A DNA stretch of 64,000 nt from contig CAMIYC010000008.1 of the NCBI GenBank assembly GCA_946402905.1, positions 27,928-91,927 on the forward strand, read 5' to 3'. The notes below the pieces were generated by a model. That model saw only the letters and a list, made by a program, of their open reading frames with translations. It was not told the origin of the DNA and made no database searches. This document shows positions 4,321-7,792 of the stretch, one piece after another (position 1 is the stretch's first letter; every line of letters begins with the position of its first letter). Both the position numbers and the translations under genes were made by a program. The stretch comes from an uncultured Prevotellaceae bacterium (GTDB lineage Bacteria > Bacteroidota > Bacteroidia > Bacteroidales > Bacteroidaceae).

Positions 4321-6585
<2,265 letters not shown>

Positions 6586-6691
6586 TAACAAAAGGCCGTA
6601 TTTTTCCTTATTTTTTGTTGCGTTTTGTTTCGCTGATGTTACATGGAGCAGTCAATGAAAGACAGATTGTATTATTCTTTCTTTTTACAAA

Positions 6692-6926
6692 TTTTTGGCC
6701 GAAAAGCTAAAGGTGGGTTCTATTAATTATGTCGAGGCGATTTTTGATTTTTAGTCGAGTGCAGAGTGTAAGTTGAAGAGGGAGTATAGCGGGCTATACG
6801 ACCGATGAGACTTGACACTATGCACCGAATAAAAACAAAAAGCGACCGAAACAGATTGAGCAGAATAATGCCTATATATCAAACAGAATTAATAGAACAC
6901 ACCTAAATGCTTTCCGGCCAAAAAAA
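6692..6926. repeat. Palindromic MITE-like element with imperfect ~32-bp terminal inverted repeats and nested inner inverted repeats
   Basis: Left TTTTTGGCCGAAAAGCTAAAGGTGGGTTCTATTAATT versus reverse complement of right end TTTTTTTGGCCGGAAAGCATTTAGGTGTGTTCTATTAATT; inner GTATAGC-GG-GCTATAC and further matching arms. Confidence 0.7.
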
Positions 6927-6964
6927 GACAGCCGAATGTGAAACGGGAAATCGCTTCAGATCAT

Positions 6965-7792
6965 TTACAGCCTCTTCTGCAACTCGCGGTACACTACGGC
7001 ATTGCATCCCACTTTTGCGACTGAGAACAGTGAGATGATAAGGGCCGTGATGATCATGGTCAGTATCTGGGAGTCTACGATCAGACTGATCAACCAGTTG
7101 ATGAGGCCAGAGGCTATTGCCATTATCAGGAAAAACACGATATCTATCCAGAAGAGGGTGGATTTATAGCCGTAAGTGATCTTCGTACTCTGTATCATCG
7201 ACTCCGACGGTGAGATTTCCTTGTCAAACATCAGATAATAGGCTTGCGACCAGCCGTAGCTGATGATGATGCCCGGCACGATGATAAACATGAAAGCGGG
7301 CAGCAATGAGATGGCCATCAGGCCCAGCAGGTTGAAAAACTCACCCATGTATTTACGGTACTGCCCGTCGAAGATAAAGGTGGGACTGATCATTCTGCCC
7401 TCGCTCTTGCTCAGAGATATGGGCAGGTTGACCATGGCGATAGTAGTGCCCACATTGATGTAGGGTATCCAGCAAGTGAGGATATATAGGATATATGCCA
7501 CAAAGATGGATAAGAAATTTTTCAGTCCGAGGCCGATGCCTTCGCAGAGCACTCCCGACACGGTGATCAGCCGTTCGCCGTCTGACCCGATGGGAGGTGT
7601 GGGTGGCACAGCCTGTGTACGGTAGGCTTCTTTGCGGGGTGGCTCCTGACGAGGTTCCTCGGTCCTGGGAGTTTCTGCATGTGGAGCCTCCTGGCTGGCA
7701 TGCTCGTCAAACCAATAGCCGCAATATCTGCACTTCTTAGCTACGGTCCTGACCATTTGTCCGCATTGCGGACATCTTTTCATCTCTTCCAT
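6965..7792 (-). CDS. Zinc-ribbon multi-pass membrane protein
   Basis: N-terminal CPQCGQMVRTVAKKCRYCGYWF, low-complexity linker, then several hydrophobic segments. Confidence 0.65.
   Translation of the reverse strand: MEEMKRCPQCGQMVRTVAKKCRYCGYWFDEHASQEAPHAETPRTEEPRQEPPRKEAYRTQAVPPTPPIGSDGERLITVSGVLCEGIGLGLKNFLSIFVAYILYILTCWIPYINVGTTIAMVNLPISLSKSEGRMISPTFIFDGQYRKYMGEFFNLLGLMAISLLPAFMFIIVPGIIISYGWSQAYYLMFDKEISPSESMIQSTKITYGYKSTLFWIDIVFFLIMAIASGLINWLISLIVDSQILTMIITALIISLFSVAKVGCNAVVYRELQKRL

Follow-up and report, generated by a model that had tools for sequence, protein, structure and literature searches.

Between two minus-strand genes, encoding a family-10 glycosyl hydrolase/esterase (4321-6534) and a zinc-ribbon protein (6965-7792), the window (the whole 64,000-nucleotide stretch of Prevotellaceae DNA analysed here) carries a sequence that reads as one palindrome inside another. 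The question raised by this locus is whether such a structure is a mobile element, a structured RNA, or both. The inverted-repeat arms, inner and outer, that a first-pass annotation placed at 6692-6926 are present and lie far beyond chance, the 261-nt region folding at -90.8 kcal/mol (z -9.2; 0 of 200 shuffles equal) and the inner hairpin (6729-6855) giving a z of -8.6.

Extent of the element and its insertion site

A search of the window's own genome (G000, a draft in 117 contigs) for 6680-6940 produced dozens of matches, the edges of which lie just inside 6692-6926. Reading the flanks of every copy sets the element at 6712-6903, i.e. 192 bp of the form GGTGGGTTCTATTAATT...AATTAATAGAACACACC. 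There are 34 full-length copies (two of 191 and 190 bp), 19 of them identical to the window copy; such draft copy numbers are underestimates, because these elements break short-read assemblies. An exact 4-bp target duplication, AT-rich in sequence, flanks 28 of the 34 (TATA seven, TTAA six, TTTA five, TAAA four, TTAT three, and ATAA, TCTA and TGTA one each), and fixes the limits, so that the extent of 235 bp first proposed was wrong. Since copies occur with both TTAT and ATAA duplications, the flanking A/T belongs to the target and not to the element. Duplications likewise flank internally deleted forms, which are 101, 73 and 53 bp in length, and fragments are present too. The features of the element and its site are as follows.

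6712..6903, + (the structured strand, set by the hairpin): 192-bp MITE, its ends fixed by target duplications among the 34 full-length copies
6708..6711, no strand: left target-site duplication TAAA, identical to 6904-6907
6904..6907, no strand: right target-site duplication TAAA, identical to 6708-6711
6712..6728, +: left terminal inverted repeat GGTGGGTTCTATTAATT, kept as GGNNGGTTCTATWAATT in relatives
6887..6903, -: right terminal inverted repeat, reverse complement GGTGTGTTCTATTAATT
6856..6886, no strand: variable spacer between the hairpin and the right terminal repeat, poorly conserved in sequence, yet with overall element length staying near 192
6692..6707, no strand: left arm of an older target palindrome, TTTTTGGCCGAAAAGC, outside the element
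6909..6926, no strand: right arm of the same palindrome, GCTTTCCGGCCAAAAAAA, outside the element

The terminal inverted repeats are 17 bp long and 16/17 identical, and the element holds no gene-length ORF, in agreement with the earlier reading. Its multiple copies, terminal inverted repeats and target duplications make the 192-bp unit almost certainly a MITE, as a mobile element one of an ordinary kind, and the 34 full-length copies, 19 of them identical and 28 with exact duplications, show that it has amplified recently in this genome. The wording 'MITE/REP-like' thus survives in its first half only: REP/REPIN (RAYT) sequences are 20-40-nt palindromes without target duplication, whereas the element is 192 bp long with 17-bp repeats and a 4-bp duplication. 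The copies and duplications that the annotation had suggested looking for have homologues in relatives within the genus, which are 187-195 bp long (mostly 192), have GGNNGGTTCTATWAATT ends and 4-bp duplications, and are patchily distributed, 69 of 299 genomes carrying the element. One copy, in L102 (genome G163), has a ~50-bp internal duplication of the 3' arm and totals 242 bp. Contigs of G094 (L206-L217) and G295 often end within elements, the breaks in G094 falling mostly near the hairpin apex.

The outer arms, taken at first for the termini of the element, are indeed inverted repeats, but they are absent from all other copies, and the flanks, when rejoined without the element, refold into a single hairpin around TAAA (z -6.3). 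The arms are therefore target and not element: the MITE has jumped into the loop of an older, unrelated palindrome, and 'nested palindrome' was literally right. That terminators or hairpins are a general target was considered and rejected, the 34 rejoined sites having a mean z of -0.48 and the window site being the exception; the target palindrome was also rejected as an intrinsic terminator, the T-run lying before the stem and the A-run after it. By a simple ORF criterion, 31 of the 34 sites are intergenic.

The hairpin and its apical motif

Apart from the poorly conserved ~30-nt spacer at 6856-6886, the 192-bp element could, as suggested, fold as one hairpin; its structured features are the following.

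6729..6855, +: conserved structured hairpin, covariance model R1, 46 pairs
6775..6808, +: apical motif GAAGAGGGAGTATAGCGGGCTATACGACCGATGA, with GA mismatches round an A-U/U-A pair and a GG/CC step, then a 6-bp stem and a CGGG loop
6784..6799, +: apical stem-loop GTATAG-CGGG-CTATAC

The interiors of relatives differ by up to ~30% in sequence and have a similar fold. In an alignment of 32 hairpins (A1), standard pairs amount to 86.8% versus 71.2% after shuffling, and double changes occur in 35 of the 46 pairs (217 cells versus 70.6 ± 7.6 shuffled), a signal destroyed by shifting the partner by 1-3 columns. As the 46-pair structure was picked with the A1 sequences in view, an independent set was tested, comprising 60 distinct sequences from outside model building, aligned by R1. 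Here 91.9% are paired versus 64.7% shuffled, with 674 double changes versus 197 ± 15 affecting 42 of the 46 pairs, the exact ratios being upper bounds since alignment by R1 leans towards the structure and the sequences are related. The proposal that arm mismatches might be compensated in other copies is thus strongly borne out.

The substitutions are also informative as to strand. On the window hairpin, R1 scores 130 bits on the + strand and 30 on the - strand. In the independent set there are 164 G-U cells versus 32 A-C cells (312 and 183 when shuffled), and in the apical part of A1, 50 versus 10. Because a G-U on the + strand is an A-C on the other, tolerance of the former and not of the latter implies that selection sees the + strand and that the selected molecule is one strand. 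The hairpin is therefore likely a single-strand structure under selection. Because single-stranded DNA likewise tolerates G-T over A-C, that the strand is most likely RNA is something we infer rather than read from the pairing; the structured RNA offered by the annotation as an alternative to a MITE would then hold alongside it. Among the young copies in the window's genome, variable sites are fewer in the hairpin than in the rest (7/127 versus 14/65; Fisher p 0.0013); the test in G560, a genome from a different genus of the family, was poor and did not reproduce the difference. The window copy has no Rfam match at E<=10; relatives have only matches below the gathering score, mostly to microRNA precursors, which were rejected as artefacts that any long hairpin gives.

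The apex has the layout GAAGA-GG-GA-[6 bp]-CGGG-[6 bp]-GA-CC-GATGA, and may be read as GA mismatch steps with one A-U pair and two G-C pairs between them. This A-U pair becomes U-A in eight of the 32 A1 sequences and also in the G560 element. The pairs of the 6-bp stem (A1 pairs 69-84 to 74-79) are broken in 0-1 of the 32 sequences; UA/CG exchanges occur in 12 sequences and AU/GC exchanges in 16. Conservation across Prevotellaceae and Muribaculaceae is strongest in the non-Watson-Crick GA mismatches and the unpaired CGGG loop. A 34-nt apex pattern, in which variation was allowed solely at covarying stem positions, occurs at at least 106 places in the genome collection; among the matches listed, all are Bacteroidales records, with carriers including Prevotella, Prevotellamassilia timonensis, Xylanibacter caecicola, Marseilla massiliensis, Muribaculaceae, Paramuribaculum and Muribaculum. 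No viral contig has the apical motif.

One hairpin between different ends

A class-wide R1 scan outside the window's own genome returned only G560 and a weak match in G425. The hairpin is found in elements of ~190-200 bp in Prevotellaceae and Muribaculaceae, with varied target duplications and at least seven unrelated types of terminal repeat, some assignments of type coming from single loci and automatic scoring. The G560 elements are exactly 192 bp long with GAAACTGTTTTGAATTT ends, and 14 of the 16 copies show a 3-bp TNA duplication. Elements with GAAACTGTTTAAATTTAATT ends are 183-197 bp long and have TTA/TAA duplications, those with AGTAGSTGTTCAAAATTAA ends are 195-200 bp long with no clear duplication, and those with GAGAGTGTTTGGATTTAAA and GAGTGTGTTTACTTTTAAA ends have TTA/TCA and TTA duplications, respectively. 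Further hairpin-bearing types have GAWGTGATTWAAACTTTTT and ATAAATTGGTACGATTTGAG ends, and G186 adds AAACCCAAATCGGTCGTTAG. R1 aligns full length to nearly all end types, implying that one homologous hairpin, beyond the apex alone, is common to them. In the open-access literature searched, no precedent was found for one covarying structured module common to MITEs with unrelated ends.

In G186 (L384-L391) the hairpin is very dense, with 2-5 copies in several of the sampled 20-kb stretches and at least two types of terminal repeat adjacent to one another. G425, from another Bacteroidota family, may add an end type: a 253-bp MITE-like element at L136:1483-1736 has IS982-like ACCTGAGTTCGAT ends and a TAGCGGGCTA apex as in the hairpin, at a weak 34 bits. 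At L195:990-1090 and L198:about 620-820 there are AAACCCAAATCG-type ends with short tandem repeats inside (CCAGTCGGA, GGGGCGGAC).

Two sister MITE types have IS5-family partners by their ends. Next to one G560 copy lies an insertion sequence of 899 bp that has almost identical ends and encodes a 276-aa transposase of the IS5 family (NF033580, E 2.6e-68), and an IS5-family element in G308 has GAAGTGATTTAAACTTTTT ends, matching the Muribaculum type of hairpin element. The matching autonomous transposase that the annotation had envisaged can thus be named for a sister element in another genus and not for the window's own type of terminal repeat: no autonomous insertion sequence with GGTG...AATT ends (GGTG[GT]GTTCTATTAATT) was found in the window's draft genome or in sampled relatives, and lone GGTG ends in G000, G094 and G186 have no transposase there. 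Neither the IS5 nor the IS982 elements contain the hairpin themselves. In G010 the ends of IS1380 elements are CCTTAATTCCGCAG, and an IS982 element in the same genome was rejected as a partner despite partial likeness of its ends, which are ACGTGAGTTCGATGAATT with apparent 6-7-bp duplications. At G000:C98:6675-7016 (L068) there is a truncated IS1380-type transposase at a contig end, profile positions 1-80 being joined to 327-364. Plasmid and phage records gave no match to the element; five viral contigs with the 17-bp end, none of them with the motif or a convincing paired element, were rejected as chance.

Explanations and known systems

The reading we prefer, with a probability of roughly 0.7, is that the window element is a non-autonomous DDE-type MITE, moved in trans, with a hairpin cargo selected as a folded single strand, most likely RNA. 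The transposase would come in trans from an insertion sequence whose ends match, recognise the 17-bp terminal repeats and insert the 192-bp unit into 4-bp AT-rich targets, with TNNA preferred, mostly between genes; the ends and duplications, along with the IS5-family partners of the sister types, suggest movement in trans. The cargo, a ~125-nt imperfect hairpin selected as the folded + strand, would set this MITE apart from an ordinary deletion derivative; the module rides in MITEs with other terminal repeats, hence with other transposases. Probably an RNA read from neighbouring promoters, the hairpin would benefit the element itself, helping it to spread or persist, and not any particular gene nearby. 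A sigma-70 scan found no promoter of the element's own, the left end lying only ~17 nt from the hairpin and the consensus not covering Bacteroidota promoters. Bursts of nearly identical copies, specific to the species (G000, G560), together with a structure kept across lineages and ends, suggest that only hairpin-intact masters keep spreading. A bolder extension, which we offer tentatively and think doubtful, is that non-autonomous elements exploit any DDE transposase at hand by means of the hairpin, a portable selfish single-strand module, the hairpin and not the ends being the unit that persists; capture would have placed it between the ends of various insertion sequences, and it might help recruitment in trans or host tolerance.

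It is improbable that the MITE is an ordinary one in which mutation bias, i.e. arm-templated correction of a quasi-palindrome, and not selection maintains the pairing of the hairpin. In long imperfect palindromes, one arm is known to be corrected against the other. Transcripts of bacterial MITEs fold in general (PMC10969869, PMC2229807). Correction should, however, remove mismatches, whereas the GA mismatches and the CGGG loop are what the two families have conserved best, and, being strand-blind, it does not predict tolerance of G-U over A-C on one strand only. Somewhat less probable again is that the hairpin acts as single-stranded DNA, either as substrate of a second recombinase or by folding back on the lagging-strand template so as to expose paired ends (cf. 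IS200/IS605, RAYT/REPIN). The 192-nt strand does fold as DNA (-42.7 kcal/mol, z -9.7), a preference for G-T over A-C is expected there as well, and in G000 the hairpin strand favours the G-rich strand (19/25, p 0.015). This replication-strand bias, however, was rejected as a general property, being absent from G560 (8/19) and G186 (7/15) and from the whole (34/59, p 0.30). Moreover, terminal repeats with target duplications mark double-strand DDE transposition; HUH enzymes do not leave this signature.

As for a host-beneficial or neighbour-regulating RNA (an mRNA processing site, stabiliser or terminator), the precedents are NEMIS and ERIC, for which such roles have been proposed (PMC10969869), and the location is suitable in that sites are mostly intergenic and rarely between divergent genes (3/31). 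The orientation argues the other way: relative to neighbouring genes in G000 the hairpin strand is same in nine cases, opposite in nine, convergent in nine and divergent in three, the balance of gene strand is 35/64 (p 0.53), and a hairpin with no preferred orientation to genes or to GC skew speaks against gene-specific action in cis. With the patchy occurrence in the genus also counting against it, we regard this explanation as about as improbable as mutation bias. A transcription terminator or simple intergenic palindrome without mobility might be suspected from a stable hairpin between two minus-strand genes, but copy number, identical copies at unrelated loci and, decisively, exact target duplications refute it, and no terminator-like site was found at the element; its probability is negligible.

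The usual view of a bacterial MITE is that of a decayed insertion sequence, the interior of which is irrelevant. Here the interior is the most conserved part, and in at least two gut Bacteroidales families it is common to elements whose ends are unrelated. Should spread depend on the hairpin, this would point to a general requirement, or to a host factor, in the trans mobilisation of non-autonomous elements; a hairpin acting as a stand-alone RNA would represent an abundant, so far unassigned RNA family of Prevotella and Muribaculaceae. The question is directly testable, given exact copies, sister elements and a named IS5 partner.

Among known systems, the Porphyromonas gingivalis MITEs (BrickBuilt, MITE239, MITE464/PgRS and MITE700) are, as described in the available portion of PMC4596501, likewise Bacteroidales elements without coding capacity, and resemble the hairpin MITEs in having ends that match insertion sequences of the same genome, filed under IS5. 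Their ends (GAGACCTTCGCA, ACGTGAGTTCGATATAAAGGAA, GAGACTGTTGCA) differ from those in the window, BrickBuilt has a 23-nt minisatellite core unlike anything in the window element, and that portion of the source describes no covarying hairpin. Loci with the MITE239 end among the genomes searched, in which P. gingivalis was not identifiable, are without the hairpin. ERIC and Correia/NEMIS elements, according to the accessible sections of PMC2229807 and PMC10969869, are similarly ~100-200 bp long, non-autonomous and intergenic with terminal repeats, and their transcripts fold into long stems. By contrast with the hairpin MITEs, they have TA ends and one type of terminal repeat each, and those sections describe no module across unrelated types. 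IS5-family insertion sequences (NF033580) match two sister MITE types by their ends; the window's ends and 4-bp TNNA duplication match no insertion sequence, and the insertion sequences are without the hairpin. Finally, HMP2_4205 (132 bp; PMC8040213), a palindromic candidate structured RNA of Bacteroidetes, is similar in size to the hairpin; transposons and inverted repeats go unmentioned in the main text of that source, and it may be that the hairpin is an anonymous motif in this large survey of Bacteroidetes structured RNAs.
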